Assembly: GCA_017411435.1 (NCBI GenBank)
Contig: JAFQQD010000058.1
Coordinates: 1-45,469, forward strand
Length of the DNA: 45,469 nt
Direction: 5' to 3'
Source of the DNA: Clostridia bacterium
Lineage (GTDB): Bacteria > Bacillota > Clostridia > UMGS1883
Below, piece after piece: positions 1 to 42,725 of this stretch. Every line of letters begins with the position of its first letter. The stretch's first letter is position 1. A program made the position numbers and the translations under genes. Below the pieces are notes generated by a model. That model searched no databases and was not told the DNA's origin. It saw nothing but the letters and a program-made list of their open reading frames with translations.

Positions 1-5
1 TATTT

Positions 6-18
6 ACTTTCCGATGCA
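6..18. other. attL core (left attachment site)
   Basis: ACTTTCCGATGCA here is identical to 41300-41312 at the end of mnmE. One mismatch further on, both copies continue with AAA. Only five bases of host DNA precede it in the window, so what lay downstream of mnmE before integration cannot be seen. Confidence 0.85.
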
Positions 19-82
19 GAAAATGAATTTTCAAGCGTAACAACCTAACAATCAAATATATAGGATATGGAATCGGAAGTAT

Positions 83-105
83 CAGTCACAGAATAGTCAC
101 AAATG
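83..105 (+). repeat. Putative integrase arm-type sites, left end
   Basis: AATAGTCACAAATG at 92-105 is repeated exactly at 41209-41222 next to attR, and a shorter CAGTCACA lies just before it at 83-90. Matching short repeats flanking both att cores are typical of arm-type binding sites of tyrosine integrases. The rest of 19-193 holds no gene that I can support. Confidence 0.55.
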
Positions 106-193
106 TAAACGGAAGTGTTTACATTGGAAACAGGGGAACGCATGGCGTGACTGATCCAACCGAGGGACAAATGTAGTGAAAAGGATTCGGAAA

Positions 194-700
194 TCAAAAC
201 GAATAACCGAATGTAACTCCGACCCCAACATAAGGCTGGCCACCTGCAGGAGTCCAGCCGTAACCGACCTGCGGACCGACGGTGAAGTTCCAACGCTTCT
301 GCCTCGTCACCGTCTTCTCCGTCGTGATGTACTGCGTCTGCCGGTAAATGTCGATATCGAGCAGGTTTGCCCTGTAACCCTCGATGACCGCCTTGTAGTC
401 CTCCGTCTCATAGACCTTCGTCTCGATCGGCACCTCAACCGGAACGCTATCCGGAGGCGGAGCCTCAACGCCGGAGGTGTCTGGCACGACCTTCACGAGC
501 CAGCAGGTGTCGATACGGCTGTTGTCGATGATCTCCGGAACTGGGACGGGCTTCTCTACTGTGTCGCGTATGGTCACGGTGTCCCTGACCTCGGAGACTT
601 CCGGTTTATCTATATACTTACTGCCGGTGAAGCACCCTAACAAAAAGACTATCAGGGATATAATTATGCAGATACATATTTTCGTGTAGTTATTCAACAT
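194..700 (-). CDS. Putative spanin-like lysis protein with C-terminal outer-membrane-like strands
   Basis: The protein has about 168 residues. A hydrophobic segment near residues 8-24 ends in LLGC, which could be a membrane anchor or an imperfect lipobox. A proline-rich, charged periplasmic-type linker and a coiled region follow. The last 30 residues are glycine- and aromatic-rich alternating strands ending GVTFGYSF, like the closing strand of an outer-membrane barrel. It lies directly after the amidase and holin genes, where spanins normally sit. I chose the ATG at 700 because the longer TTG start (739) lies within a hairpin. Family not recognised with certainty; spanin function is inferred from position and topology. 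Confidence 0.5.
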   Translation of the reverse strand: MLNNYTKICICIIISLIVFLLGCFTGSKYIDKPEVSEVRDTVTIRDTVEKPVPVPEIIDNSRIDTCWLVKVVPDTSGVEAPPPDSVPVEVPIETKVYETEDYKAVIEGYRANLLDIDIYRQTQYITTEKTVTRQKRWNFTVGPQVGYGWTPAGGQPYVGVGVTFGYSF

Positions 701-720
701 ATTTTCAGCCTGTTTTTCAA

Positions 721-760
721 AAATCCCTACCGCCTTCAAGTGGTTGGCAGATAGGGATTT
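721..760 (-). terminator. Hairpin between amidase and spanin-like gene
   Basis: AAATCCCTA (721-729) pairs with TAGGGATTT (752-760). On the minus strand the stem is followed by TTG and an A-rich run rather than a long U tract, so it may be a leaky terminator or an mRNA-stabilising end for the amidase message. Confidence 0.4.
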
Positions 761-763
761 AAG

Positions 764-1369
764 TTACTTCATCTTGTTTATGAATTTAAGTGTGCCGCGA
801 ATGTGGGTCTGAATGATTGCCTCCTTGCCCTCCTCGGAGAGTATATAGCGGACATCCTCTCGATTATCCTGAAAGAAGTTCTCGGACAGTAAGGCCACGC
901 AGCGCGTATGCAGCAGGATGTGGAAGTTATCCTCCCAGTCTGGCTCCTTGTTGCCGTTGTACTTCCGTAGCTTCCGGTCCGGCATGACCTCCGCAGCCGC
1001 CTCATACAGGCACTTCGCAAGGTCATCCGAGCCTGTCACTCCCTTCGTGGTATAGCAGCTCCAGCCGTTGGCGGAACGCCACTCAAGCGTATTGCCCGAA
1101 GCGTTCAGGTGGATAGACAGCAGGATGACATTCTCCTTGCCGTACCTGTCACAGTAGGCGTTCGCCCTCTGTGCCCGCTTCTTGAGAGCGACATCGTCCT
1201 CCTCCGGCACAAGCTCGAAGCTGTCATATCCGGCGTTCCGGAAACCGGCCACAAGCCTTGCAGCCATTTCACGCGCCCAAGCGTACTCACGCACAAGCCC
1301 CTCCGGAGACCGCTTGCCTGGGGTGTCCTTTCCGTGACCCGCATCTACAAGAATGATCGGCAGTCTCAT
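764..1369 (-). CDS. N-acetylmuramoyl-L-alanine amidase (endolysin, Amidase_3 type)
   Basis: This 201-residue enzyme should cleave the amide bond between N-acetylmuramic acid and L-alanine of peptidoglycan at the end of the lytic cycle. Zinc-site motifs of the Amidase_3 family are visible: DAGHG at residues 9-13, a glutamate in the REYAW segment near residue 28, SIHLNA near residues 85-90, and the C-terminal SENFF with the catalytic glutamate near residue 163. There is no signal peptide, so export probably depends on the holin. Its start overlaps the end of the holin gene by ATGA, indicating coupled translation. Confidence 0.9.
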   Translation of the reverse strand: MRLPIILVDAGHGKDTPGKRSPEGLVREYAWAREMAARLVAGFRNAGYDSFELVPEEDDVALKKRAQRANAYCDRYGKENVILLSIHLNASGNTLEWRSANGWSCYTTKGVTGSDDLAKCLYEAAAEVMPDRKLRKYNGNKEPDWEDNFHILLHTRCVALLSENFFQDNREDVRYILSEEGKEAIIQTHIRGTLKFINKMK

Positions 1370-1821
1370 TTCTCGTCCCTCCGCTTCACTACATCCGTAA
1401 GCAGCTCGACAAGCTCCTCTCGGCTGATCATCTTCGACATTATCTCGTTAGCCTTCTGCATTTCGCCCCTTATCTTCTGGTCGGCTTTCTCACGGACGCT
1501 GATTCCCTCGACGACAAGCAGGTATATCCCGAGCAGAAGCGTCACGACCGGAATGCCGTGTATCACCTCAAGATGGAAAAGCTCCAGCAGGTGGCTCAAA
1601 TGAATGAGCAAGTCCACGCCAGCAGCTATGAGCATGCCGCCCTCGTACATGATGAACTTGTTGAGAGTGCGTTTCAGACCATAGCTGCTCCTGACCTCGT
1701 GTCTCTGCTTTGCCTTCATGAGACCGCTGATAAGGTCGATGATCATTGCGAACAGGACCACGACCATTGACAGAACGACAATCCCTATCATCGCATCTGT
1801 CCCTTTCAAGAGTTCTAACAT
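1366..1821 (-). CDS. Phage holin family protein
   Basis: About 151 residues with three or more hydrophobic stretches (near residues 10-30, 60-80 and 90-110) and a charged C-terminal coiled tail of about 45 residues. This matches holins that permeabilise the inner membrane and free the endolysin. The start at 1821 lies two bases after the upstream stop codon; a longer in-frame start is possible. It overlaps the amidase gene by four bases. Confidence 0.7.
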   Translation of the reverse strand: MLELLKGTDAMIGIVVLSMVVVLFAMIIDLISGLMKAKQRHEVRSSYGLKRTLNKFIMYEGGMLIAAGVDLLIHLSHLLELFHLEVIHGIPVVTLLLGIYLLVVEGISVREKADQKIRGEMQKANEIMSKMISREELVELLTDVVKRRDEK

Positions 1822-1823
1822 AA

Positions 1824-2099
1824 CTATCGGAAAATGAGCCATAGCACGGCGATTAACAATCCAACGACAATCCCGACAATGTCGCAAATGAGGTCGCGCC
1901 ATTCGGGCGTACCTTTACGGCTTATGAGGTCGTAAAGTTCTTTGAGAGTACCTATGACTATCGCGATAATCACAGCAGCCCAGAGGGGCAGGAAAGCCCC
2001 AAAAACAAGGATGATCAGGGAGCATACAAGGAGGTGCAGCAGCCCGTCAGTTGAAACCCAGCTGAAAGCGCGTTTCAGGAAGTCGATAAACTTTCTCAT
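1824..2099 (-). CDS. Small membrane protein, possible second holin or antiholin
   Basis: 91 residues with hydrophobic segments at about 20-50 and 70-90, separated by a polar loop (KELYDLISRKGTPEWRDL). The loop resembles small predicted membrane proteins of the YfiM/DUF2279 kind, but I hold this loosely. It lies between the coiled-coil protein and the holin in the lysis cassette, overlapping the upstream gene by four bases. A holin-modulating role is inferred from position. Confidence 0.55.
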   Translation of the reverse strand: MRKFIDFLKRAFSWVSTDGLLHLLVCSLIILVFGAFLPLWAAVIIAIVIGTLKELYDLISRKGTPEWRDLICDIVGIVVGLLIAVLWLIFR

Positions 2100-2365
2100 A
2101 CCACGCCCTCCATTGCTCTCATGCCCTCAGCCTCCGCAGCCTCTCTCTCGAGCCTCTCCTGCTCACGCAACTCGACGAGGGTCTTCTTGTTTTCATTGTA
2201 CCTGGCGTATGCCTCGGAATACTCCTTGAACTCCTCCGGATAGTCCACGCTGAAGACCTTGCCGGTCTTTCCGCAGTGATTCTGTCTTTCGTCGCTCTTG
2301 GCCATTACAGCTCGGAGCTCGTTCTGCTCAATCTCAAGCTGCTTGATTCTGTTTGTTGTTTCCAT
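2096..2365 (-). CDS. Small coiled-coil protein of unknown function
   Basis: 89 residues, strongly charged and helical, with heptad-like Leu/Glu/Arg patterns. No signal peptide and no recognised domain. The start overlaps the 3' end of the reverse transcriptase gene by about 32 bases and its end overlaps the next gene by ATGA, so it is co-transcribed with both the retroelement and the lysis genes. Confidence 0.6.
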   Translation of the reverse strand: METTNRIKQLEIEQNELRAVMAKSDERQNHCGKTGKVFSVDYPEEFKEYSEAYARYNENKKTLVELREQERLEREAAEAEGMRAMEGVV

Positions 2366-3746
2366 AATACTGTGTGTTTAGAATGTTTGTGATCTGTCTG
2401 TGTCTCCTCCTGATCTTACGCTTCCGTATCTCCCTGTCCTTGTGCTTGCGGACGATTGTCGCTTTCAGCAGGTCATCGGAGAAATACAGATAACCGTCCC
2501 AGTACTGCATGATCTGGTCGGATATCCGCTTGCGTATGTTGTAGGACGCAAAGTGTTTCATCAGCCCGAAATAGGAGTTGATTATCGAAACGAATTTCTC
2601 AAGGTGACGCATCTTGCTGAAATGCCCCGAGGCATAGACCGTGTTGTAATAGTGGACCTTGCACTCGAGCTTTGCGACGGTGCGGTTGCTGATATACATT
2701 CTCCCGAACTTGACCACGCCTCCGAGCATCTTGATTCCGTGCTGGTACGGCTGTTCATGGTACTTGTGCGGGTGCATCCTCAGACCATGCTCCGCGATTT
2801 TCAGGCGGGTATGGAAGACAATCCGGTGCAGGTTGTCCTTGTCTCTCGATCCCAAGAAGAAGTCATCGACATAGTCCACGACCTTGACATCAGAGAACTG
2901 GAGAATGAACTTCACGATAGGTGCATTGACGAAGTTCGCGTCTGTCTGGCTCCAGAGGTTCCCGATAGCCAGACAGAGGAACCAGTCGAGGTTGAACGCG
3001 CTCTTGCTCGGCGCGAGATCAGCCCATTCGCATATAGGTGTCTTCCTGATACAGTGTTCGGTCGGCAGGTTGAATGTGGTTATCCTCATGAGGTACAGGA
3101 CCATGTCTTTGTCCGGCTCGTGGTAGTTCTCCATGACGAGCTCCACAAGAGCATCATAGAGCCTCCTCTTGTCTATCGACATGAAGAACGAGGCGATGTC
3201 GAACTTCGCGACGGTGCAGTCCTGAGTATATCCGCGAGAGAGCCTGTATATAGCATCACGGACAGCCATGAGAGCCGCGAGGTTTCCCTTGCCGACCCTG
3301 CATGAATACATTTCGTCCGGTATGCTTCCGCATCGGTTGAACAGGGGCTCAATCCTCATGACGAGCCAAGTCTGTATGACGCGGTCAGGAAAGTCAGCCG
3401 CTATGGCTTCCCTCAAGCACGGATATTTCAGCAGGAAGATAATGGACTTACCAGGCACATACTCGCAATAGTATGCGGCTCTGGCCAAGCGTAAGAGATT
3501 GTCCGCCTCGTTGATTCGGAAGCGGAGAGCGTTAGGAGTGTTGCGTTTGTTCTTATAGCAAACGCGAAGCGCGATACGCAAAGAGAGATAGAACTCCTCA
3601 AAGGTGTAGCAATTATCTCGAAAATCAGTGACGGGGCGCACGGAGTTACTGTTGTACTTGTTGTTGTTGTTCAGTTCACCGTTGTTGCCGTTGAAGATGA
3701 AGGCGTTGTTGCTACTGTACTCGCCAGATTTCGTTTCTGCAGACAT
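2334..3746 (-). CDS. DGR reverse transcriptase, reading frame includes the template repeat
   Basis: A 470-residue frame. Catalytic palm motifs are visible: FDIASFF (Asp183) and YVDD (292-295). The segment IGNLWSQ (261-267) has the SQ signature that separates DGR reverse transcriptases from group II intron enzymes. The enzyme copies the template RNA with errors at adenines and delivers the cDNA to the variable repeats. The frame opens at ATG 3746, and about residues 7-40 are encoded by the template repeat. No methionine follows until about residue 130, so the protein either starts before the template or uses an alternative start such as GTG at codon 37. The C-terminus is very basic. Confidence 0.93.
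   Translation of the reverse strand: MSAETKSGEYSSNNAFIFNGNNGELNNNNKYNSNSVRPVTDFRDNCYTFEEFYLSLRIALRVCYKNKRNTPNALRFRINEADNLLRLARAAYYCEYVPGKSIIFLLKYPCLREAIAADFPDRVIQTWLVMRIEPLFNRCGSIPDEMYSCRVGKGNLAALMAVRDAIYRLSRGYTQDCTVAKFDIASFFMSIDKRRLYDALVELVMENYHEPDKDMVLYLMRITTFNLPTEHCIRKTPICEWADLAPSKSAFNLDWFLCLAIGNLWSQTDANFVNAPIVKFILQFSDVKVVDYVDDFFLGSRDKDNLHRIVFHTRLKIAEHGLRMHPHKYHEQPYQHGIKMLGGVVKFGRMYISNRTVAKLECKVHYYNTVYASGHFSKMRHLEKFVSIINSYFGLMKHFASYNIRKRISDQIMQYWDGYLYFSDDLLKATIVRKHKDREIRKRKIRRRHRQITNILNTQYYGNNKQNQAA
3626..3726 (-). repeat. DGR template repeat (TR)
   Basis: 101 bp matching the two variable repeats at 4277-4377 and 29073-29170. Read on the minus strand it is rich in AAC codons, the usual way a template exposes adenines at codon positions 1 and 2. 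Every mismatch to either variable repeat is at a template adenine (13 for VR1, 7 for VR2). Beyond the conserved GTCACTG at its 3' end, the template continues with ATTTTCGA whereas both variable repeats continue with CTTTA. This is the IMH*/IMH difference that sets the direction of information flow. Confidence 0.95.
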
Positions 3747-3785
3747 AACTATAAATGATAGTGAAACGACCTTTTCAAAATAATC

Positions 3786-4196
3786 TTATAGGCTCTCTGC
3801 CGGCTCCCTGTAGGAACCGACACTCTCACCAGCGCGTTGAAAATACTTTCGCCACCTCTTGCCGTGACCTCGTATCTCTCCGATATGCGTATCGCAAATC
3901 GCCTTTTGCTCTATTGACATCAAGCCCAGCTCAAGAGCAAGGCTCGTCAGGTCATCGATAATATCCACCTCCGTAAGACAATCGGTGACATACTCTGCAG
4001 CTTTCGTCTTGTTCATCTGATTGTTTGCCTTGACGATCAAAGCCCTCATTTTATTTGTGGCTTTGATGATGTCGTCGCCGACGATGAATTTATATGCCCT
4101 GTCGAAGTTCTTCACCACGCAACAGAGATAGACGGAGAACGGAAACGCCTCCTTGTAGATGTCAAGCTGCTCGAGCTTATTTTGATTCTTTGCCAT
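3786..4196 (-). CDS. avd: Avd-like DGR accessory protein
   Basis: About 136 residues, all helical, with a basic surface typical of Avd, the four-helix-bundle partner of DGR reverse transcriptases that binds template RNA. It lies between the variable-repeat gene and the template/RT, the usual place for avd. I took the internal methionine (MAKNQNKLEQ, 4196) as the start because the longer frame at 4238 begins inside the DGR hairpin. Assignment rests on position, size and helical character; no single motif is decisive. Confidence 0.75.
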   Translation of the reverse strand: MAKNQNKLEQLDIYKEAFPFSVYLCCVVKNFDRAYKFIVGDDIIKATNKMRALIVKANNQMNKTKAAEYVTDCLTEVDIIDDLTSLALELGLMSIEQKAICDTHIGEIRGHGKRWRKYFQRAGESVGSYREPAESL

Positions 4197-4216
4197 AGTT
4201 GTCTTTGGGGTAAGGC

Positions 4217-4245
4217 GCTCCGTGACTCTGGAGAGCACACGGAGC
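4217..4245. other. DGR hairpin/cruciform downstream of VR1
   Basis: GCTCCGTG (4217-4224) and CACGGAGC (4238-4245) form a perfect 8-bp stem, with an inner CTC/GAG stem closing a 4-base loop. It begins 31 bases beyond the end of VR1. There is no T run in either direction, so it is unlikely to be a terminator. Hairpins just after the IMH are known to be needed for efficient DGR retrohoming in the Bordetella phage system. Confidence 0.75.
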
Positions 4246-4268
4246 TAAACGAAAAACGATTTAACGGT

Positions 4269-5585
4269 TTATAAAGCAGTGACGGGGCGCACGGAGCTAC
4301 TGTCGTACTTGCTGCTGTTGCCCAGACCACCGCTGCTGCCGTTGAAGACGAAGGCGTTGCTGCTACTGCACTCGCCAATAGTCCAAGGATAGTAACCGTG
4401 TCCGTAGCAAGTCGGATATCCCATTTTGACGAGGGTATCATTTACGAGGTCTTCCTTTGTGTCAGCTGCGTTGAGCCTTCGGGTGTTAATCATGTGGTAC
4501 ATTTCCACAGGAGACGGCAAGTGCCAAGCTCCAGCTTCAAGCCCCGTCGTGAATCCCTCAACCGACACGCCGTAAGTGTGAGCCCTGTGAGCCGCCGGAT
4601 AGCGAGGCTCCTGTGCCCCTCTTACGATTGTGCCGAGGCGTGCAGCAAGCAACTCGGTGTACTCCTTTCCGTCGCGAAGCATTGTGCCGTAATTGGACGG
4701 GAATTGCGCCATATGCTCACCGTCAAGGTAGTCCTGATATGTAGCATATTTCGCACGGAGATCGGCGCAGAAATCGAGGTTTTCAAACGAATCCTTATTG
4801 ACGATTGTAGAAGATCCCAGAGGAATGTTCGATGTAGGAACTGTGCCATTCACTGAATAATACTCCACGAACTTCGCCAAGTGGAAGCCAGCAAAGTATG
4901 AGTTTGCGCCGTTCTTTCTGCGGACATACTCCGTCGTGCCGATATAGGCGTATGTGGTCTGATAGTCCACATCATCCTGAGCCGCAAGAACGGCTCCGGT
5001 CACTTCCGTGATCTTTGCCGAAATATACCAGTTGTGAGACAGTATGATTCCGTTGTCTGTGGCGGTTGCGGTCCACTTCCTGTTCGGCTCCTGTGCGGCG
5101 GTTGCAAATGCAGCCGTGAGCTTGTCTGCGATGCTCGCAAGAGTAGAGCCAGCAGCCCAGTTCACGCTTATCGCATCGGTATTGGCTCCGGTCGTAGTCT
5201 TAACCGTGAGCGATCCGGCTGCAGCATTCGCGATGCCCGACAGCATAGCCTCAAACGGATGTCCCCAACGCTCCGAGTACTGCGTGATAGACATACAGAG
5301 GAGCGTCGCTCCAAGTCGCTTGAATACCACTCCGACCGGAACGAGGGTCGCGGCCAGCTGTGCCTTGACCAGAGTACGAGCCTTGACGAATCTGATTCGC
5401 GCCTCCACCTTGTCAAATACGACAAGGTCGCCCTCGTATGCAGACTGCTTTTCCACGAGGCAGTTCACGCCGTCATATACTACAGCCTTGTTTTCATCAA
5501 TGTAGGAAACAGCACTCTCGCTCTTGAGGCGTGCTGCATCAGCGGCATAGTCCGCTTTCTTTGAGTATTTTGTTACCTGTGCCAT
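4269..5585 (-). CDS. DGR-diversified tail fibre/receptor-binding protein (VR1 target)
   Basis: 438 residues. The N-terminal half is a phage-type stalk domain; the C-terminal half has the WHLPSPVEMYHM segment and a closing region typical of C-type-lectin or DUF1566-like folds used as DGR targets. The last 33 residues are encoded by VR1. Template Asn codons have become Ser, Gly or Asp, and Tyr has become Cys at one site. It follows the alanine-rich fibre gene and precedes avd and RT. The natural reading is a tip adhesin whose receptor specificity is retuned by the retroelement. Confidence 0.88.
   Translation of the reverse strand: MAQVTKYSKKADYAADAARLKSESAVSYIDENKAVVYDGVNCLVEKQSAYEGDLVVFDKVEARIRFVKARTLVKAQLAATLVPVGVVFKRLGATLLCMSITQYSERWGHPFEAMLSGIANAAAGSLTVKTTTGANTDAISVNWAAGSTLASIADKLTAAFATAAQEPNRKWTATATDNGIILSHNWYISAKITEVTGAVLAAQDDVDYQTTYAYIGTTEYVRRKNGANSYFAGFHLAKFVEYYSVNGTVPTSNIPLGSSTIVNKDSFENLDFCADLRAKYATYQDYLDGEHMAQFPSNYGTMLRDGKEYTELLAARLGTIVRGAQEPRYPAAHRAHTYGVSVEGFTTGLEAGAWHLPSPVEMYHMINTRRLNAADTKEDLVNDTLVKMGYPTCYGHGYYPWTIGECSSSNAFVFNGSSGGLGNSSKYDSSSVRPVTAL
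4277..4377 (-). repeat. DGR variable repeat 1 (VR1)
   Basis: 101 bp aligned without gaps to the template repeat at 3626-3726, with 13 differences, all at template adenines (12 A-to-G, one A-to-T in coding sense). It forms the 3' end of the fibre gene, followed by the IMH and stop codon. The bias to A-to-G suggests few or recent rounds of mutagenesis, or selection. Confidence 0.95.
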
Positions 5586-5593
5586 GATGACTG

Positions 5594-6211
5594 TTACTTG
5601 TTAGACCAGCTTCCCACAGAGGTGTTGCCGGTTGATTTATAGATTACATCGCCCTCGGTGTCGATGTACAGGCGACCTTTATCCAGAGGAATGTAGGTCG
5701 GAGCACCCGCACCGTGCGTCACGATATTGTTGCGTTTCCAGACATCGAGTTCATCCACGCTCAAACGAGGTATGATGACCTGACCTGTAAGGACCTGAAC
5801 CAAGAGATTTTCAAGGGTTTCAATCCTGCTGTGAGCCTGATTGAGTGCCTCGACAATCACTCTCATTTCCGGACCTCCTTTCTGTGCTGCAGAAGCAAGT
5901 GTCCCTGCTGCAGCTTCGGCGGATTGTCTTGCCGCCTCTGCCGAGTTCGCTGCCGCTGTCTTATGTGCCTGGGCGTTGTTCTCGCTCGTCTTTGCCTCAT
6001 TGGCCGACACGGCTGCGGAGGAAGCCTTTGTCGTGGCTGTCGCCGCCGCCTGCGTTGCCGCTTCAATATCCGCGATGAGCTTGTCAAACTTTGCGTTTAT
6101 CTGGGACGGATTGGCATACTTGACCTTACCGTCAGAACTGTCCTCGACAAGAAAGGCGTCATTTCCCTTGATCTCGTCGATTCTGTCGTAGTCTTTACTG
6201 AATTGTGGCAT
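5594..6211 (-). CDS. Alanine-rich tail fibre stalk protein
   Basis: 205 residues. The N-terminal 35 residues likely anchor to the virion. Residues about 45-105 are an Ala/Ser/Glu/Lys-rich heptad region typical of phage fibre stalks. A further coiled segment (HSRIETLENLLVQVL) and a small C-terminal domain (YIDTEGDVIYKSTGNT) follow, like many Bacteroidales phage fibre ends. It lies nine bases upstream of the DGR-diversified adhesin, so the two probably form one fibre. Confidence 0.75.
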   Translation of the reverse strand: MPQFSKDYDRIDEIKGNDAFLVEDSSDGKVKYANPSQINAKFDKLIADIEAATQAAATATTKASSAAVSANEAKTSENNAQAHKTAAANSAEAARQSAEAAAGTLASAAQKGGPEMRVIVEALNQAHSRIETLENLLVQVLTGQVIIPRLSVDELDVWKRNNIVTHGAGAPTYIPLDKGRLYIDTEGDVIYKSTGNTSVGSWSNK

Positions 6212-6229
6212 AGTATTGTTCTGTTTGTG

Positions 6230-6799
6230 TTAATCTCCGATAGCAACAAATCTCCTCACCTTCGGGCGGGGCTTTACGCCCTCGTCCTTCTGCCTGTCGC
6301 TCCAAAAGAGCAAAGTCCTCCGGAGGTATTCTTCCCCGATCTTCTTCGCCTCCCTTGACTGCGACATGATGATTTCCTGATCTATTGGCGTTGATAGATC
6401 ACCGTATTTCTGCGTAACGCCGAAGGCGGTGACATTGATTGAGTGGTGGCGTATGAATCTCGCATACGCGAAATAGCACAGGGCGGTCCGGAGACCTTCA
6501 AACCTCACAAGCTCTCCCTTTGAGTTGGTGTACTCACCGCCGTTCAGGAACTTGTGAAGATCAGCGGACATTTCGCCCTCTATACCAGAGAAAATTTCTC
6601 GGTCGGCGTCGTCTGTCAAGGCTTCGCCGTTGCCCGTCCTTATGAGACCGAGCGACGAGAACTCCTTATAAAGCTCCGCACCGATAGCAGGCAGGATGTC
6701 AAGCCTTTCCGCCTCCCTGATATATACATTCACCGCCTCCGCGTCTATATTCTTCGCGATTGGGCGGTATTTCCGGATGTCATCTACTGTGATTATCAT
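6230..6799 (-). CDS. Probable head-tail connector (neck) protein, DUF6712-like
   Basis: 189 residues. The opening (MIITVDDIRKYRPI) and mostly helical makeup resemble small adaptor proteins that sit under the portal in siphoviruses. The start codon overlaps the portal stop by four bases, consistent with stoichiometric assembly with the portal. The DUF6712 link is from memory of the family and not proven here. Confidence 0.6.
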   Translation of the reverse strand: MIITVDDIRKYRPIAKNIDAEAVNVYIREAERLDILPAIGAELYKEFSSLGLIRTGNGEALTDDADREIFSGIEGEMSADLHKFLNGGEYTNSKGELVRFEGLRTALCYFAYARFIRHHSINVTAFGVTQKYGDLSTPIDQEIIMSQSREAKKIGEEYLRRTLLFWSDRQKDEGVKPRPKVRRFVAIGD

Positions 6800-8067
6800 A
6801 TCCTCGTAAGCAAATAGTCGATTTCGTCCTCCTCCAGACCGTAAACCTTCATCAGGACAGCCTTTTTCGCCTCCGGCTTCTTCGTCTCGTCGAAAATGAG
6901 CTCCAGAACCTCCTTCATGTTACCTGCAAGCCTCTCCGCGATAGTCGCATTGACCCTGTAAACGCGTGGCAGGATGCCATAATTGCGGTCTGGGTTGATA
7001 CTGTCGTCGTACCAGTGCGAAAATATCTTCTCGAACTGCTGCGACAGCACCATTCTCTCGTCCTCGATGATTGAATTGTAGAAATCGTAAGCGTTTTTCA
7101 TGAGATCAGCGCCGAAATTCGCTCCGACATCCTCCGCACGAAGGATTGGGGGCTGCTGGAACGCTCTGCCGATAATCTGTGGCGTCTTTTCTTCCGTCGC
7201 GGTGAATTCCTTGTCGAAATTCTTGCCCTCAAACGGTATAAATTCAGGCTTTTGGTCTGCCGCCACCCTTGATATGTACATGAGCTTGCCGGCGTTCATG
7301 TCGCCCTGAAACTGCTTCAGCTCCTCCTTTGTCTCGTCCTCCTGCTCCTCGCTGTTGGCAGTGTTGTCGTAGTCGATGATCATTCCGGCTGGAAGAAAGT
7401 TGTTCTTCACATTCCTGTGAGTGATGTTCGACAGTCCCTCCTCTACGACCATGTCGGTCAGCACAGCCTCAAAGGTCGGCTTCGGGTAAACCCTCCTGCC
7501 GTCGCCAGAGTAGTACAGTATCTGACCTGTGTAGTTCTCCCAGCCTCCGGCTTCCTGCACCTGCTTCTGTATCACTTCCGGAGACGGGTCGAAGAAGTGG
7601 AACCACACCTGATCGTCCAGAGTGAATTTCCGGAGGGCGGTGTTCCTCTTGCCCCAGTCTGGGTGTGTACACAGCCTGTCAAACTCTCCGTTCTCGTCCA
7701 GCTGCTCGAAGCGCACCTGCTCAAACGGAATGTGAGTGGCCGACACAATCTGATACAAGGCGTTGTAATTGACATGCACGGCAAATCCCTTGAAGGTCGC
7801 GAAGTCTGTCGATACAAGTCGCAGCAGCTCGTCCATTTTCGTTCCGTTGTCATCCACGACGGCACGATAGAAGTCGCTTTGCGCGAAACCCCTGCCGATA
7901 AGGAACTTTATCTTGATGTCAAGACAGGACAGAGCCGTACCGCTTCCGCCCACAATCTCAAGAATGCGCTGCGGGTGGTCGTTGTTCGCACCGTAAGTCT
8001 GGATCTTGCACTGTTTGTTGTTCGTGGACTCTATTCGCTTTTCAGTTTTGAGTACGCTTGCTTTCAT
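6796..8067 (-). CDS. Portal protein
   Basis: 423 residues. The portal forms the dodecameric ring at one capsid vertex through which DNA is packaged. Features consistent with phage portals are an N-terminal clip/stem region, a long central helix region rich in Glu/Lys (EEQEDETKEELKQFQ), and a conserved-looking segment around QIIGRAFQQPPIL followed by C-terminal crown helices. It lies between the capsid genes and the connector gene. A strong hairpin with a U run just upstream probably lowers its expression relative to the capsid protein. Confidence 0.85.
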   Translation of the reverse strand: MKASVLKTEKRIESTNNKQCKIQTYGANNDHPQRILEIVGGSGTALSCLDIKIKFLIGRGFAQSDFYRAVVDDNGTKMDELLRLVSTDFATFKGFAVHVNYNALYQIVSATHIPFEQVRFEQLDENGEFDRLCTHPDWGKRNTALRKFTLDDQVWFHFFDPSPEVIQKQVQEAGGWENYTGQILYYSGDGRRVYPKPTFEAVLTDMVVEEGLSNITHRNVKNNFLPAGMIIDYDNTANSEEQEDETKEELKQFQGDMNAGKLMYISRVAADQKPEFIPFEGKNFDKEFTATEEKTPQIIGRAFQQPPILRAEDVGANFGADLMKNAYDFYNSIIEDERMVLSQQFEKIFSHWYDDSINPDRNYGILPRVYRVNATIAERLAGNMKEVLELIFDETKKPEAKKAVLMKVYGLEEDEIDYLLTRI

Positions 8068-8084
8068 ATCTTGCTCTTGTTTTG

Positions 8085-8116
8085 AAAAACCCGAAGCCTG
8101 TTTGCCAAGCTTCGGG
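8085..8116 (-). terminator. Intrinsic terminator upstream of the portal gene
   Basis: CCCGAAGC (8090-8097) pairs with GCTTCGGG (8109-8116); on the minus strand the stem is followed by TTTTT (8089-8085). It lies inside the late operon, so it is likely only partly effective and sets capsid-to-portal stoichiometry. Confidence 0.7.
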
Positions 8117-8138
8117 CTGCCAGATTTCGAGTAGGGTG

Positions 8139-8888
8139 TTAAGCCTCAAGTTTGGTCAGGGCTTCTGTCGCCTCCGCAAGGAGTGCCTCCGCATCCTTAA
8201 CCTTTGCCTGTGCCTCCGCGATTCTTTTCTCGTCCTTCACTTCGGCTTCCTCTGCCTCCTTGAGCTTGTTAAGCCAGAGGCTCAGATTTCTTTTCGCTTG
8301 AGAAACGGCGTTTTTAGCCACTTTCAGGTTTTCAGCGTGTTCGGCTTCACCTTGAGCGTCATCGCCGCTCTGAGGGGCGTTAGAATCACCGTCAGCGCCT
8401 TTCTCGCCGTTCTCCTCTGTGCCGTTCTCTCCCTCCGTGCCGTTCTGTCCCTCTCCAGTTTCGGTGTCATCGCCTTTGCTCTGGAGTGTGCCTGCGTCCG
8501 CAAGCAGCTCCTCGATGTTGTCCGGAAGTTTTGAGAATTTCTTTCTGCACGCCGGATTGGTCTTCAGGTGGTAAAGGGCGAGCTCGTCGGTCAGGTTGTG
8601 ACAGGTACAGAGCTTCGCGTTATCGTGGTTCACTACATCAATGAGCAGTGCGCCAGCCTTGAGTTCAAAATTTTTCTCCTGCATAGTTGTGATCTGTTTA
8701 ATTGTCATGAGGACAATGTATGCGTCCATCCAGCAGTCAGAGCAGGACTTGTTGAGCTTGAGTCCGGTTGCCCGCACATACAGCCTTTCAAGTTCCTGCC
8801 TGAAAGCGTGCTCGTGCTTGATCTTCTCGCGAAGCTCCTGCCGTGTCAGCTTTCCATACTTGTCCCTGAATGATAGAATTTCCTTCAT
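8139..8888 (-). CDS. Putative virion-associated protein, unknown function
   Basis: 249 residues. The N-terminal half is helical and contains CSDCW (near residue 49) and a second Cys-rich cluster (CTCHNLTDELALYH, CRKKF), suggesting a bound metal. The middle is acidic and rich in Gly/Glu/Asn; the C-terminal 60 residues form a charged coiled coil. It sits between two capsid-module genes, so a structural or assembly role is likely. I do not recognise the family. Confidence 0.55.
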   Translation of the reverse strand: MKEILSFRDKYGKLTRQELREKIKHEHAFRQELERLYVRATGLKLNKSCSDCWMDAYIVLMTIKQITTMQEKNFELKAGALLIDVVNHDNAKLCTCHNLTDELALYHLKTNPACRKKFSKLPDNIEELLADAGTLQSKGDDTETGEGQNGTEGENGTEENGEKGADGDSNAPQSGDDAQGEAEHAENLKVAKNAVSQAKRNLSLWLNKLKEAEEAEVKDEKRIAEAQAKVKDAEALLAEATEALTKLEA

Positions 8889-8890
8889 CG

Positions 8891-9457
8891 TTAAGCCTTG
8901 ACGAGAGCCTTGATAGCAGCCTCGGTCTCCTCAAGAGAGCCGGCATAGAACGAGAGAGGGAGCTGACTTTCCTTCGCGTTGTCGCCGCTGGCCAGAGTGA
9001 AGTTATAGATGACGCCGTCCGCATCTGTGGTAGGAGCGTCAAGGGCTGACATTTCCAGACCTGACTCATAGCCATAGATTTCGTACTTTGTCTCGTCATT
9101 GTGAACATCGACATTCTTGACGATAGCGACCACCTTGCCGTTTGCAAGTTCGTTCAGCTCTGTCTTGACCTGCTGGGTCTTGTTGAACACTCGGCAGAGG
9201 ACAGAATGGTCGAACATATTGCGATAGGTCTTCTTCGCAAGAGGGCTGTTACCCTCAAAGGCGTTCTTCTCCGAGGTGTACTCGTAGGCTGTCGCTCCGT
9301 CCTTCATGATGAACTCGCTGCAGACGCCGCCCGCTACCTGTGTAGCCTTGCGGTCAATCTCGTCATAGTTCGCCAAGATGATTGTCTTCTCAAGACCTGC
9401 AACGGAAGCGTCACAGCTCGCAAGTGCGAGATTGCTTGATATTTTTCCGCATTTCAT
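8891..9457 (-). CDS. Putative virion structural protein (tail tube or capsid decoration)
   Basis: 188 residues with a beta-rich pattern throughout and no transmembrane segment. It directly follows the major capsid gene and is separated from it by a strong hairpin, suggesting high expression. The body (VVAIVKNVDVHNDE, YEIYGYESGLEMS) resembles small phage structural beta-sandwich proteins of Bacteroidales phages. No other tail tube candidate is evident, so tube protein is possible; a capsid decoration role fits the position better. Confidence 0.5.
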   Translation of the reverse strand: MKCGKISSNLALASCDASVAGLEKTIILANYDEIDRKATQVAGGVCSEFIMKDGATAYEYTSEKNAFEGNSPLAKKTYRNMFDHSVLCRVFNKTQQVKTELNELANGKVVAIVKNVDVHNDETKYEIYGYESGLEMSALDAPTTDADGVIYNFTLASGDNAKESQLPLSFYAGSLEETEAAIKALVKA

Positions 9458-9479
9458 AATTTCCTGGTGTTAAGATTAA

Positions 9480-9505
9480 GAGGGCAGGGAAGTGTGCCTG
9501 CCCTC
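9480..9505 (-). terminator. Hairpin after the major capsid gene
   Basis: GAGGGCAGG (9480-9488) pairs with CCTGCCCTC (9497-9505), a 9-bp stem with an 8-base loop, 18 bases after the capsid stop codon. On the minus strand it is followed by TTAATCTTAA, a weak U tract. It may partly terminate transcription or protect the 3' end of the capsid mRNA. Confidence 0.5.
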
Positions 9506-9522
9506 GTGGTAAAGTTGAAGAA

Positions 9523-10599
9523 TTACTGGGCGTAAACGAGACGCTTGAAGTTGAGAAGTTCTGCATCCATCTGGTCCTTTGCCTCGATGCGGTTCTTGCG
9601 CGACATCTTGTCGTAGAATGCGTCGAGCTCTGCGAAGCCCTCCTCCGACACGATACCAACGGCGAGGTTACCGGTCTCACAAAGCACAGCTCTGTGCGGC
9701 TTGTAAAGCCTGTTGCCGAGGTTGTTGTACTGCGCAATCATCACATCCCAGATTGGCATAGGAATGATTGGAACATTGTGGATCATGAGGGCGTCGATTC
9801 CCTCGGTGAGGTTCTTGTACATAACCTCGTGATTCTTCGCGTCGCTCAAATACTGCTCGTAAGCGTCGGCGATTGACTGTGTCACCTTGAACGACATCGA
9901 CGGCTTCTGTCCGTTCTGCGGTGTACGCATTTCGAGCGGAGCCTTGTAGTACATATCGTTCAGGAGCTTGTACGCCTGCTCTGGAGTAATCTCCTGCTCT
10001 GCGAATGTGGCTCCGTTGTTTGCCGCAATCTCGACAGATACCGCGCCCTGAGTGATAGCGGTCTGGAGCTGCTTGAAGAAGCCGTCAAAGAGGTTGAAGT
10101 AATCCACATCCACACCTTCGGTGATGATACCGTCGCCGTCTCCGACATTGGCTGCATCTACATCGCCGAACCAGATCATGCGATAGATCATGTTCTTGAT
10201 TGCCTCCTCGAGGACCATTACAACGATAGCGATGTAGTCGGTATCAGTAAGGTCGTCCATGCGGATGCCGTTGTTCTTACAGTAGAGAGCCGCTGTGTCC
10301 TTGAGGTTGTCAGCGCACTCGTCGATGATGATTTCCCATGCCTTCGGCTTCCATGTCACCTTTCTGGTGTTGATAGCGAAATCGTGAGCAACTGGGTCAC
10401 AGCCCTGCTTTGCCTTTCCTACGAGACCGCCTCCGAACACGAATCCGATTTCCTTGTCGTACTCGATGCCGGTATGAATGGCATGGATGAAGTCGATTTC
10501 CGGAGCTGTCAATGCTGCTTCAAATACGAGCTCCTTGATGTCACGCACCTGCTCTGCGGTGAATGTGAACTTTGTGAGGTCTAATACTGGTTTTGCCAT
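9523..10599 (-). CDS. Major capsid protein
   Basis: 358 residues, the expected size for an HK97-fold capsid protein without a fused delta domain. It follows the protease/scaffold gene by six bases and ends before a hairpin, the normal capsid module layout. Helical N-terminus, mixed middle with several Gly/Asp loops (FGDVDAANVGDGDG), and a C-terminal region with VPIIPMPIWDV, similar to the P-domain strands of capsid proteins. Assigned by position, size and composition. Confidence 0.82.
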   Translation of the reverse strand: MAKPVLDLTKFTFTAEQVRDIKELVFEAALTAPEIDFIHAIHTGIEYDKEIGFVFGGGLVGKAKQGCDPVAHDFAINTRKVTWKPKAWEIIIDECADNLKDTAALYCKNNGIRMDDLTDTDYIAIVVMVLEEAIKNMIYRMIWFGDVDAANVGDGDGIITEGVDVDYFNLFDGFFKQLQTAITQGAVSVEIAANNGATFAEQEITPEQAYKLLNDMYYKAPLEMRTPQNGQKPSMSFKVTQSIADAYEQYLSDAKNHEVMYKNLTEGIDALMIHNVPIIPMPIWDVMIAQYNNLGNRLYKPHRAVLCETGNLAVGIVSEEGFAELDAFYDKMSRKNRIEAKDQMDAELLNFKRLVYAQ

Positions 10600-10605
10600 A
10601 GCTTT

Positions 10606-11661
10606 TTACTTTTTAGCGTTCTTGATCTTTTCCTTGATGCCAGCCTTACGCTCCTCGCGTGTAGGGGTTGGAGCCTCCTTGGTCGAGTTTGTCCTTCCCT
10701 TTGGCTTGAAGTTGCTGCGAGTCTCTTTCTTGAAGTCCTCGATAAGGTTTGTCGCCTCCTCGAGCATAGAGCGCAACTGGGCGTTTTCAGCCTTAAGTCT
10801 CTCCACTTCCTCTGAAAGGTTTGTCTCGTCATCTTCCTCTGCCTCCGGCTCCTTGATCTCGGAGATAGCTCCGTCAGCGATTGTCACGGTACGACCGTCC
10901 GGAAGTGTGAATGTGCCGTCTGGTGACGCCGCCATTCCGACCTCAAGGGTGTCGTCCTCTGATTCGGTTGTGAAAAGCACAGTTCCGTCTTCGTCGGTGT
11001 GCTCGAAGTTTGTGGCCTGCTCCTCCTGATTCAGGAAAGCGTTGATTCTTGACAGCAAGTCAGTGGCCGCCTGTTTGAGATTTTTTACTTTTGCCATATT
11101 ACTATTTGTTTTGAAATTGGTGTTGTAGCTGTTTATTCGGCTGATGAAGCCCCATTCCAGAAGCTCCTCCGCCGTCCTGATCTTCTCCTCATTCATGATC
11201 TCCTGCAGCTCCTCGAGGGATTTGTTCGTCCTCTCTGCATAAATGTTCAGGATTTTGTTCTGGAGCGTCCTTGTCTCCTCTGCCGCCTTTTCAAGGTCGT
11301 CTGCCGTTCCGGCGTAAGCACAGCCGTAAACCTTGTGAATGAGAGCCGAGCAATTCGGGTTTGCCGACCTGTTCTTCGCAGGTGCAGCGAGCAGGAGGGT
11401 GACAGCCATAGAGTGACAGTCTCCCTCGATGTTCATGTGAATATTCTTGCCGGATGTACGAAGACAGTCATAGATCGCAAGACCTTCGGCCACTTCGCCC
11501 CCAGGGCAATGAATGTCAAACTTGAAATCCGTTTCATCCGGATTGTCAGCAAGGAGTTTCTGCACGAACTCAAGCGAGAAAACTCCCTCTGTTCCGTCCC
11601 AGCAGTACCACCATTTGTGGTCTTCGTTGGCGACTACATTGTGTATTTTTACTGTTACCAT
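10606..11661 (-). CDS. ClpP/S49-like head maturation protease fused to scaffold domain
   Basis: Serine protease domain in the first 190 residues: a CPGG loop near residue 55, the nucleophile Ser in GDCHSMA (Ser84 from this start), and the catalytic His in SALIHK (about residue 109). From about residue 190 the protein becomes acidic and coiled (scaffold-like) and ends in a very basic tail. An in-frame ATG at 11097, preceded by an A/T-rich stretch, would give a separate scaffold protein (MAKVKNLKQ), as lambda does with C and Nu3. The start is ATG 11661 (MVTVKIH). Confidence 0.85.
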   Translation of the reverse strand: MVTVKIHNVVANEDHKWWYCWDGTEGVFSLEFVQKLLADNPDETDFKFDIHCPGGEVAEGLAIYDCLRTSGKNIHMNIEGDCHSMAVTLLLAAPAKNRSANPNCSALIHKVYGCAYAGTADDLEKAAEETRTLQNKILNIYAERTNKSLEELQEIMNEEKIRTAEELLEWGFISRINSYNTNFKTNSNMAKVKNLKQAATDLLSRINAFLNQEEQATNFEHTDEDGTVLFTTESEDDTLEVGMAASPDGTFTLPDGRTVTIADGAISEIKEPEAEEDDETNLSEEVERLKAENAQLRSMLEEATNLIEDFKKETRSNFKPKGRTNSTKEAPTPTREERKAGIKEKIKNAKK

Positions 11662-11679
11662 AAATCTCAAAGTGTTTCT

Positions 11680-11699
11680 ATTGTACGCACTTCAAGTGC
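11680..11699 (-). promoter_or_regulatory. Repeated element AGTGCGTACAAT with adjoining palindrome, upstream of protease/capsid genes
   Basis: ATTGTACGCACT (plus strand, 11680-11691) also occurs at 27137-27148 and 36723-36734. Here it overlaps a palindrome GCACTTCAAGTGC (11687-11699). A weak promoter-like pair (TTG, 19 bases, TTCCTTTG) lies just upstream on the minus strand. It may control a head-gene transcript that starts within the late operon. Confidence 0.4.
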
Positions 11700-11747
11700 A
11701 AAGGAAAGAAATAATTTTCAGAAAGCAATGCTCAACTTTTTGACCAC

Positions 11748-11981: not shown

Positions 11982-11985
11982 AAAA

Positions 11986-17748: not shown

Positions 17749-17753
17749 GGCTG

Positions 17754-19187: not shown

Positions 19188-19196
19188 ATCATTTTG

Positions 19197-27087: not shown

Positions 27088-27136
27088 CTTGATACTCTTT
27101 TGTGTTGCGTGCGACAAAGATAAATAAAATGCTTTC

Positions 27137-29052: not shown

Positions 29053-29520
29053 CTATTTAACGAATTGTAAAGCAGTGACGGGGCGCACGGAGTTACTGTG
29101 GTACTTGTTGTCGTAGTTCAGTACACCGTTGCTGCCGTTGAAGATGAAGGCGAGGTTGCTACTGTACTCGGGGTCTGGGTCCTCCTCGCAGGTCCAAATC
29201 CAGTTGTTATCCAGCCTTTCTCCGCCGATTAGCTCAAGGGCTTCATCGAGACCCTGAAACCTTGCGTCGTAGATGTCAAGACATTCGCGGCGAGTAGGAC
29301 ATCGGAATCCCTGCTCGTCAAAATCTTTCAAGCCGGCTGCCGCTTCCTGTGCCTCCTTGAACTCAAACCGTCCGGCAAGCTGATTCTTGTGAATCTTGAT
29401 TCCGGTGGTCTCGCTTGTCTGAATGATCACGAGCTGTGCGCTCTGTGGGTTCTCGACTTTCTTCCAGTCCTCAACTGCTACCAGTGTCTGGTCAGCAGGA
29501 TTTTCAATAAAAATTTTCAT
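29053..29520 (-). CDS. Second DGR target protein (VR2), small, in the early region
   Basis: 155 residues from ATG 29520 (MKIFIENPAD). Residues about 75-155 resemble a DUF1566/C-lectin-like domain: GFRCPTRRECLDIYD and NNWIWTCEED, ending in the VR-encoded segment (EYSSNLAFIFNG to VRPVTALQFVK). No signal peptide or membrane segment. It lies in the early operon next to an ASCH-like and a PcfJ-like gene, far from virion genes, so a cytoplasmic or non-virion variable protein is likely. Confidence 0.85.
   Translation of the reverse strand: MKIFIENPADQTLVAVEDWKKVENPQSAQLVIIQTSETTGIKIHKNQLAGRFEFKEAQEAAAGLKDFDEQGFRCPTRRECLDIYDARFQGLDEALELIGGERLDNNWIWTCEEDPDPEYSSNLAFIFNGSNGVLNYDNKYHSNSVRPVTALQFVK
29073..29170 (-). 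repeat. DGR variable repeat 2 (VR2)
   Basis: 98 bp aligned without gaps to the template; all 7 differences are at template adenines (changes to C, G and T all occur). It is followed by the same GTCACTGCTTTA as VR1, and similarity to VR1 (but not TR) continues for about 18 further bases. Confidence 0.95.
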
Positions 29521-29550
29521 CATGATTTGTTGATTAAATGGGTTAATGAA

Positions 29551-40002: not shown

Positions 40003-41157
40003 TCAAAGCCCCTCGATCTGCGGAATCTTCGAGACAGCCTCCTGCTTCTTCTTATCCATGAGCTTCGCGTAAATCTGCGTCGTCTGGATCTCCTTATGAC
40101 CCAGAAGCTTCTGGACGGTGTATATGTCAGCCCCCAAGTCCAGCATCAGCACCGCAAAGGTATGTCTCGCACAATGGAAGGAAATCTCCTTCATCACACC
40201 CGCACGCAACGCCCACATACGCAGCTCCGTGTTCATATTCGAGTTGTATCGGAAATTCCGGAAGACAAGCTCCTCCGGCTTGCCCCGCTGTCCCATGTAG
40301 CGGACAGCCTGGGCGTTGATGTCAAGATACTCCTGCGACTTGGTCTTCTTCTGCCGGAAGATGACCCTCGTGAACTCTCCCTGCTGCACTACATTCTGCC
40401 AGCGGAGCCTCATGATGTCGCACTTCCTCAATCCCGTGAGGCAGGAGAACAGGAACGCCTCCTTGAGAGCCGGATAACGGCACGGGGCGGCGGTCATCGC
40501 ACGCAGCTCCTCAATGGTCAGGTACTCGCGCTCGGTCTCCTCCTGTGGAAAGCCCGAAATGCCGTCCATTGGATTGATCGGGATGATATGCTTGCTGTGG
40601 GCGTGGTTCAGGCAGGCTCGGAGCTTGTTGAAGTATGAGACCTTGCTGTTCTGGGACAGAGGCTCGCGGACATTCAGCTCTCCGTCCTTCGTCTTCCTGT
40701 TCTGACATACCGCCCTCTTGTCAAGATAATGCTTGAACGCCTCGACCCATTCGGGCGTGACATCGCGAAAGGTCATCTTCCTGTTCGTGATGAAAATCTC
40801 GAGGTGCTGCAGGCATGAATACCAGTTGCCCCAGTTGCCCCTCGATTCTTTTGTGCCGAGCCTCTCTTCGCACATGTACCGGAAGTAGTCCAGAAAGATA
40901 GTGTCCTCCTTGTAAATCTTCTCGAACCCGAAGCGGTTGTTCTGGAGCTCGACGACCCTCTTGCTCCGGACAGCCTCGGCGAGTGCGAGTGTCTGCCTGT
41001 TCTTCTCCCTGTCCTCCCTTGTCTTCTCCGGAATCAGGTACATCTTGAGGAATTCATACGAACGGACGCCGTTGATGTAGACATCCAGAAAAAGCGACTC
41101 CCTGCCGCTTGCCATCCTGCGACGGCGAAGCCTTATCGGCTCTTTTGCTCTTGCCAT
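40003..41157 (-). CDS. int: Tyrosine integrase
   Basis: 384 residues. Arm-binding and SAM-like core-binding domains are followed by a catalytic domain with all six signature residues: Arg244 (TGLRK), Lys273 (QKKTKSQE), His328 and Arg331 (HCARH), His354 (LLGHKE) and the nucleophile Tyr363 (TQIYAK). It catalyses integration at the mnmE 3' end. The gene ends away from attR, with 143 bases of repeats between its start and the att core. Confidence 0.95.
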   Translation of the reverse strand: MARAKEPIRLRRRRMASGRESLFLDVYINGVRSYEFLKMYLIPEKTREDREKNRQTLALAEAVRSKRVVELQNNRFGFEKIYKEDTIFLDYFRYMCEERLGTKESRGNWGNWYSCLQHLEIFITNRKMTFRDVTPEWVEAFKHYLDKRAVCQNRKTKDGELNVREPLSQNSKVSYFNKLRACLNHAHSKHIIPINPMDGISGFPQEETEREYLTIEELRAMTAAPCRYPALKEAFLFSCLTGLRKCDIMRLRWQNVVQQGEFTRVIFRQKKTKSQEYLDINAQAVRYMGQRGKPEELVFRNFRYNSNMNTELRMWALRAGVMKEISFHCARHTFAVLMLDLGADIYTVQKLLGHKEIQTTQIYAKLMDKKKQEAVSKIPQIEGL

Positions 41158-41297: not shown

Positions 41298-42725
41298 TCA
41301 CTTTCCGATGCAAAAATTAGCAAAGATATTCCCCAGCACCTCATCGGTTGAAATCTCTCCTACAATTGAGCCGATGTGGTAGATCGCTTCGCGGATGTCC
41401 TGGGCGGCGAGGTCGGTGGGGAGGCCGGCGGCGAGGCCTTCGCGGACACGGAGGAGGGAAGTGCGCGCGTCGTTGAGAGCCTGGACATGACGCTGGTTTG
41501 TGACGAGGGTGGTGTCGCTGTCACCGAGAAGATTGCGCTGTGTGGAGGCGAGATGAGCCCTGAGCTCTGAAATTCCGGCTCCTGTTCTGGCTGAAATCGG
41601 GATTATCGGTATCTTGCCTGCAACTCCTTTATTTTCAAGCTCTGAAACTATAAAGTTTGATGTGGTAACATTATTGTTAACCTCTGAAATATCGGTTTTG
41701 TTGAGCAGAATTACTAAATTCTGAATTGAGAAATCCACTTTGCCGATGATCTCCCTTACTGTCTCGCAAGTGCTTTCGAAGTCACGGGTCAGGTCTACCA
41801 TTCCGAGCACTATCGACGCCTCGGAGATCTTCTTGAATGTCCTCTCGATTCCGATTTTTTCGACAGTTTCTGTCGTTTCGCGAAGTCCGGCTGTGTCGAT
41901 GAAGCGGAAGAGTATTCCGTCTATGTTCAGGGTCTCTTCAATGGTGTCGCGGGTGGTGCCGTGGATGTCGGAAACGATGGCGCGGTCTTCGCCGAGGAGG
42001 GCGTTGAGCAGGGTGCTCTTTCCGGTGTTGGTCGCTCCGGCGATCGCAACCGGCACTCCGTTCTTAATGGCATTGCCGAGGCGGAATGAATCGATCAGAC
42101 GGCTGACGTGCGAGATGATTTCTGCAAGCAGGCTGTCGAGTCTCGCCCTGTCGGCGAACTCCACTTCCTCTTCGCTGAAGTCAAGTTCGAGTTCCATGAG
42201 TGAAACGAGCTCCAGAAGTTCTGATCTCATTGAACGCAGTTCAGATGAAAAGCCTCCTTTCATCTGCTTGAAGGCAATCCTGTGCGCTGTTACATTCTGA
42301 CTTGAAATGACGTCTGCAACCGCCTCAGCCTGAGCAAGGTCCATCTTGCCGTTCAGGAACGCCCTTTGTGTGAATTCACCGGGTTCTGCAGCTCGTGCGC
42401 CGGCTTCGTACAGCAGGTCCATAAGGGTTGATGCTATATACGATGAAGCATGGCACGAAATCTCTGCCGAGTTTTCTCCTGTGTATGAATGAGGCGCCCG
42501 GAACACGCTGACAAGGACTTCATCCAGGATTTCTCCGGATGATGTATGGACTGTACCGAACTTTATGGTATATCCGTCGGCGTCAGCTATGTTGCCGCGA
42601 CGGCAGGTGACAACCTTGTCGACAATGGTCAAAGCGTCAGAGCCGCTGACTCTTATCACGGAAACAGCACCTGTTCCAGGTACCGTTGCCGGGGCGCATA
42701 TCGTATCTTCGTTGTGTATATACAT
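41298..42725 (-). CDS. mnmE: tRNA modification GTPase MnmE
   Basis: 475 residues, complete. MnmE with MnmG modifies U34 of tRNAs reading codons ending in A/G. N-terminal tetrahydrofolate-binding domain (about 1-120), helical domain, and G domain with GATNTGKST, DTAGLRET and NKTD. The C-terminal FCIGK supplies the conserved cysteine. The prophage recombined in the last codons without changing the protein: the stop codon overlaps the att core. Confidence 0.97.
   Translation of the reverse strand: MYIHNEDTICAPATVPGTGAVSVIRVSGSDALTIVDKVVTCRRGNIADADGYTIKFGTVHTSSGEILDEVLVSVFRAPHSYTGENSAEISCHASSYIASTLMDLLYEAGARAAEPGEFTQRAFLNGKMDLAQAEAVADVISSQNVTAHRIAFKQMKGGFSSELRSMRSELLELVSLMELELDFSEEEVEFADRARLDSLLAEIISHVSRLIDSFRLGNAIKNGVPVAIAGATNTGKSTLLNALLGEDRAIVSDIHGTTRDTIEETLNIDGILFRFIDTAGLRETTETVEKIGIERTFKKISEASIVLGMVDLTRDFESTCETVREIIGKVDFSIQNLVILLNKTDISEVNNNVTTSNFIVSELENKGVAGKIPIIPISARTGAGISELRAHLASTQRNLLGDSDTTLVTNQRHVQALNDARTSLLRVREGLAAGLPTDLAAQDIREAIYHIGSIVGEISTDEVLGNIFANFCIGK
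41300..41312. other. attR core in the last codons of mnmE
   Basis: ACTTTCCGATGCA covers the codons for C-I-G-K and the first base of the stop codon of mnmE. Identical to attL at 6-18. Confidence 0.88.

Follow-up and report, generated by a model that had tools for sequence, protein, structure and literature searches.

The contig JAFQQD010000058.1 (45,469 nucleotides, analyzed over its whole length and called the window below) carries a complete diversity-generating retroelement (DGR). As read from the sequence, it is a genuine DGR of a well-known kind: all parts of the system are present, the differences between the template repeat (TR) and two variable repeats (VRs) are restricted to template adenines, the TR is in frame with the reverse transcriptase (RT), and a covarying RNA element stands next to it. 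The best explanation, which we hold with high confidence, is a complete DGR of a Bacteroidota prophage, in which one TR feeds two lectin-like target genes. Of the routes known by which bacteria and phages diversify their proteins in a programmed way, DGRs are the main one. Unusually, in this branch the gene for the copying enzyme includes the template. The main features, all on the minus strand, are as follows.

2334..3746, (-): DGR reverse transcriptase, an open reading frame (ORF) of 470 aa; residues 8-40 are encoded by the TR, and the RT core begins at about residue 49; motifs YVDD and AIGNLWSQ
3626..3726, (-): template repeat; translation in the RT frame GEYSSNNAFIFNGNNGELNNNNKYNSNSVRPVT; the marker that separates IMH* from IMH (initiation of mutagenic homing) is at position 3625, A in the TR and C in both VRs
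3729..3777, (-): conserved RNA element with a two-helix structure; 3769-3763 and 3737-3731 form the outer helix, 3762-3758 and 3752-3748 the inner hairpin, whose loop is 3757-3753
3786..4238, (-): Avd-like accessory protein (phrog_3206); GTG at 4238, first in-frame ATG at 4196
4269..5585, (-): target 1, 438 aa, with an Lcl_C/DUF1566-like C-terminus; its location hints at a tail tip or fiber protein
4277..4377, (-): variable repeat 1 (VR1), at the 3' end of the 438-aa target gene
29053..29523, (-): target 2, 156 aa, Lcl_C-like, in the early (non-structural) region and adjoining a PcfJ-like gene
29069..29170, (-): variable repeat 2 (VR2), at the 3' end of target 2, 25 kb from the cassette

An ungapped comparison reproduced, exact to the base, the coordinates of the TR and VR1 given in an earlier sequence-only reading of this DNA. 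Its count of differences was also upheld: VR1 departs from the TR at 13 positions, each of them a template adenine (12 A-to-G, one A-to-T). Given 35 adenines among 105 positions, the probability that 13 of 13 differences land on A by chance is 1e-7. The repeat pair was detected at 3622-3726 and 4273-4377, in the same orientation and 651 nt apart, and this full 105-nt repeat contains 14 differences. The fourteenth, A-to-C at 3625/4276, is probably fixed, marking IMH* versus IMH rather than resulting from mutagenesis, because it is common to VR2 and to both VRs of the sister phage L021 (IMG/VR 3300032038_000266). Thus, the IMH of the VRs is distinct from the IMH* of the TR at the 3' boundary, and likewise in L021.

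The second variable repeat was overlooked in the sequence-only reading. It was found by scanning the window with the template adenines left free, and 67 of the 70 fixed positions match. VR2 differs from the TR at eight positions, again all template adenines (three changed to C, one of which is the IMH marker, three to T, and two to G); its three non-adenine mismatches sit at the outer edge, outside the repeat. Neither VR1 nor VR2 contains any difference at the 67-70 non-adenine template positions. No additional VR copy was found anywhere else in the host genome. Because target 2 is placed among early genes, its location suggests a non-structural protein, which would act outside the virion.

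The substitutions in VR1 are skewed to A-to-G (12 of 13; P 6e-4 versus the pooled rates of relatives), and VR2, derived from the same TR, is unskewed. A different mutation chemistry was considered for this excess and dropped, as 4 of 128 other loci have at least 80% A-to-G changes and VR2 lacks the skew; the excess is left to chance or selection.

The same pattern is observed in relatives. The nearest of them, L021, has the same cassette layout and an RT 58-59% identical to that of the window; all 17 differences in its VR1 are at template adenines. Its second target, located about 27 kb away, is 53-54% identical to target 2 of the window, and the corresponding VR2 has 13 differences at adenines and three at the 5' edge. 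A more distant clade member, L074, likewise has two VRs. These relatives were recovered by alignment queries instead of single-protein queries: IMG/VR scans with the RT, target 1, or target 2 as single proteins gave no close relatives. A megablast search of window positions 1-20000 against phages produced no match, and the genus and family of the host contained no close RT and no target 2.

Family searches bear out the Avd-like protein and the RT with an SQ motif named in the sequence-only reading. The RT matches RVT_1 (E 1.9e-9) and phrog_1423 (E 5.9e-52) and contains the catalytic YVDD and the SQ motif AIGNLWSQ. The accessory protein matches phrog_3206, "Avd protein of DGR" (E 3.4e-20); its NCBIfam Avd score is 34.9 bits, under the cut-off of 80, and the Pfam bAvd match is likewise below its cut-off. 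Together with the TR/VR differences, the phage genes, and the integrase, these matches uphold the identification of an adenine-specific DGR inside a prophage.

In the mechanism that we propose, a single transcript through avd, the 5' element, the TR, and the RT gene would yield both the template RNA and the mRNA of the RT. Together with Avd, the RT would copy the TR into cDNA, making errors opposite template adenines, and the cDNA would replace the homologous 3' ends, VR1 and VR2, of two lectin-like genes, one adjacent and the other 25 kb away. The copying and homing steps are modeled on Bordetella phage BPP-1, and the double role of the RT message as template is our own suggestion.

Both VRs occupy the 3' ends of their target genes. 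Among the relatives, 47 of 54 tested target C-termini match Lcl_C/DUF1566; the Lcl_C matches of the window targets are weak (E 2e-4 to 4e-3, under the cut-off). A profile of four homologs matches the C-terminal domain of Legionella Lcl (8q4e) across the VR (E 4.4e-5), and an iterated profile search aligned the C-terminus of target 1 with more than 100 other DGR targets of the set. These matches support the C-lectin fold proposed earlier at the family level, but the quality of the structural model does not allow the variable residues to be assigned to a surface. For target 1, the AlphaFold2 (AF2) model of the last 214 residues has a pLDDT of 59, with a beta-hairpin across the VR and a weak VIA match to 8q4e (Z 2.7); this Foldseek/VIA match to Lcl is not taken as proof of the fold. 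A full-length AF2 model from four sequences (pLDDT 44) is useless. The description of target 1 as a fiber gene is only partly sustained: its location beside a weakly fiber-like gene agrees with it, but there is no family match for a fiber, and family searches gave no match spanning the whole length of the 438-aa protein. From its position, a fiber protein binding host surfaces is plausible. The neighboring gene is

5594..6211, (-): weakly tail-fiber-like protein, directly upstream of target 1 (phrog_8713, E 6e-5)

The sequences upstream of the TR have in common an A-rich AAANGG, an outer helix, an inner hairpin with a loop that is often CAUUU, and GUUAAGANCAAG. We aligned this element from 18 relatives, leaving out the window and L021. 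RNAalifold predicted 12 pairs, 10 of them with changes on both sides. In this alignment, 98.6% of cells are paired, versus 74% in shuffled and at most 46% in slid alignments; the covariation score is 0.72 versus 0.23 for shuffles, and none of 500 shuffles was as high on pairing or covariation. A covariance model built without the window matches it at 3729-3777(-) with E 1.2e-4, the sole significant match in 45 kb, and every pair of the model fits the window sequence. Over 1.37 Mb the model found 49 loci, with a single match in each, immediately 5' of the TR wherever a TR was found; in these loci pairing reaches 95.9% of cells and the covariation score is 0.87 versus 0.23, the alignment being fitted to the model. 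Rfam 15 gave no match in window positions 3000-4500 even at E 1, and seven relatives gave just one tRNA. No published description of the element was found in a search that did not cover Handa et al. 2025.

Other hairpins 5' of the TR are seen in distant DGRs (L117, L147, L110, L173, L132, L134, L137, and L157), and some of them follow a similar plan of two helices (AAAAAGG, outer helix, inner hairpin), which hints at an element more widespread than the model detects.

The element may be a handle or a boundary of the template RNA, involved in RT binding, priming, or stopping. Another explanation, which we consider doubtful, is that it serves the mRNA, controlling translation or stability of avd and RT, and not the retrohoming template. 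Indeed, the element is located between avd and the RT gene, and the window copy contains the RT start codon: the ATG (3746-3744) falls in the junction of the element, GUUAUG in the window versus GUUAAG in relatives. However, the element is kept directly 5' of the TR even in loci with a separate RT ATG downstream of the TR. In addition, according to PMC12875486, which cites Handa et al., the BPP-1 RNA flanking the TR on both sides acts in cDNA synthesis or termination.

Some observations weigh against the complete, two-target DGR as the best explanation. No homolog close enough for a population comparison was found (the best RT is 58% identical). When the window element is folded alone as a single sequence, the outer helix forms, the inner hairpin is not in the minimum-energy structure, and z is -0.9 over 49 nt. 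Target 1 has no confident fold model. The DGR could also be real and now silent, the differences being a record of diversification before or since lysogeny. The record indeed comes from one genome, and VR1 leaves 21 of the 35 template adenines unaltered. Still, the RT, Avd, and both targets are intact, and the non-adenine TR-VR differences that decay would yield are absent; we consider silence unlikely and prefer the complete DGR feeding two targets.

The sequence-only reading listed the TR and the RT as separate parts, but the TR sits within the RT ORF. This ORF starts with the ATG at 3746 and passes through the TR, reading it in the frame that the target uses for its VR, and the RT core starts about 20 nt past the TR. 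A TR overlapping the RT ORF at its 5' end is characteristic of DGR structural group 3 (Schillinger et al., 2012, PMC3521204), and in the window the frame is shared and is kept across the clade; a non-coding TR-RT spacer of the BPP-1 type is absent, as the RT ORF runs through the TR. Because the interval from the TR to the RT core contains no ATG, translation of the RT most likely starts in or before the TR.

To place this arrangement, related RTs were surveyed, yielding 133 loci with a usable TR/VR pair. Across them the template adenine differs in 42% of positions and other bases in 0.6%, the latter figure being affected by the scan itself, which restricts non-adenine mismatches. The TR-RT arrangement follows the RT phylogeny (12 label changes versus 26 from shuffles). 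In the RT clade of the window (17 rows, SH-aLRT 95), the TR is open and in the VR frame in all 17 members, with no stop between the TR and the RT core; the frame was called by script for 16 and by eye for L074, for which the script had used the other target. In the third, mostly cellular clade (loci L118-L179), a terminator-like hairpin separates the TR and RT in 22 of 36 loci, and these hairpins suggest that the template RNA is transcribed separately there.

It is very unlikely that translation of the RT begins downstream of the TR and that the open TR-RT frame is accidental. In favor of this reading, 31 of 33 members of the neighboring phage clade have an ATG between the TR and the RT core, and non-ATG starts are present in the window (GTG in the TR, TTG within the RT core). 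Several apparent TR-RT fusions outside the clade of the window (L130, L138, and L162 in clade 3) were rejected as accidental, having a terminator or their own ATG after the TR. However, the frame is kept in 17 of 17 clade members versus one third expected (8e-9 if the members were independent, which they are not), 16 of the 17 have no intervening ATG, and none has a terminator between the TR and the RT core. We thus retain the start in or before the TR.

The idea that the TR and VRs are ordinary duplications under selection, with no RT-driven process, draws only on the existence of the repeats and has a negligible probability, as all in-repeat differences are at template adenines, the RT and Avd genes are adjacent, and the pattern recurs in more than 130 related loci.

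A broader scenario is offered tentatively, as its chances are somewhat below even. Here, a clade of Bacteroidota phage DGRs would have dropped the separate template RNA: the 5' element would replace or complement the 3' spacer of the BPP-1 type, the template would be translated within the RT, the RT message would be the template, and one TR would feed a virion lectin and an early non-virion lectin. If this is true, the template sequence and the RT sequence are tied to each other. To our knowledge, BPP-1 is the only system in which recognition of the template RNA has been studied in detail. The window adds a two-target prophage DGR, and its analysis brings to light a conserved RNA element that directly precedes the template on its 5' side in about 50 related loci and a clade with the template and RT in one frame. 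This raises the testable question of template RNA recognition without a spacer before the RT gene, and the architecture of the subtype deserves a closer look.

Several components of this architecture have precedents. Many reports describe DGRs from phages and prophages of Bacteroides (PMC6199706, PMC8143477, PMC8008677); TR/RT ORF overlap has been catalogued since 2012 (PMC3521204), and both this overlap and two-target phage DGRs are already published. The Bacteroides uniformis phages Bacuni F1, F2, and F4, for which a tropism change was reported (PMC8143477), resemble the window in belonging to Bacteroidota phages, in having two DUF1566 targets, one adjacent and one distant, in the order Avd, TR-containing ORF, RT, and in a VR encoding the last ~35 residues. 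Bacuni F2 (L014) also has the 5' element (29.5 bits). However, the Bacuni RTs are 34-36% identical to that of the window, and the TR is in a separate ORF with the ATG of the RT downstream of it. In BPP-1 (NC_005357), the order target/VR, avd, TR, RT on one strand and the adenine-specific differences are the same, but a 144-nt spacer separates the TR from brt, and in the window there is none, its TR being in the RT ORF. Located 3' of the TR, this BPP-1 spacer is folded and recruits RT-Avd (PMC12875486); the 5' element model found nothing significant in BPP-1. The Quimbyvirus DGR (PMC8008677) similarly has one structural and one non-structural C-lectin target, but its RT is split over three frames and the second target is on the opposite strand in a defense island, whereas in the window the RT is a single ORF and both targets are on its strand. 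The gut phages nd4 and nd12 with tentaclins (PMC10743442) also have two C-lectin targets served by one TR; there, the VR of one target is near the 5' end of the gene, whereas both VRs of the window are at 3' ends.

One locus joins a target and an RT. In L101:7536-9263 (Alistipes metagenome-assembled genome CALUNH010000034.1), a 575-aa ORF contains a target-2-like lectin in frame with a DGR RT via the TR, with no Avd or VR1 nearby. A natural lectin-RT fusion protein was set aside: because the close relative L191 carries the lectin gene alone, the likelier origin is VR2 x TR recombination (deletion) or an assembly chimera spanning the repeat.

The window is the entire contig, and the left host flank is outside it. 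Phage genes in the window encode a terminase, portal, tape measure, Clp-like protease, endolysin, holin-like protein, SSB, and integrase; they are followed by host mnmE and carA. The boundaries are marked by the following features.

40003..41157, (-): tyrosine integrase, adjoining mnmE (41298-42725)
41300..41312, (+): attachment-site-like repeat ACTTTCCGATGCA, mnmE 3' end
6..18, (+): attachment-site-like repeat ACTTTCCGATGCA, contig start

The 13-nt repeat occurs both at the contig start and at the mnmE 3' end, and the whole prophage of ~41 kb is therefore probably contained in the window. The gene content and the repeat support a temperate phage, residing as a prophage at the mnmE 3' end, as the element that hosts the DGR.

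Two other loci of the prophage are of interest. An S-adenosylmethionine synthetase gene (25978-27147, (-)) adjoins a gene for a ParB_N-methyltransferase fusion protein (23833-25278, (-)), and this pair may be a modification module. Near the integrase, on the opposite strand, there is an HSDR_N-type nuclease-like gene (38476-39531, (+)), possibly a cargo or defense gene.

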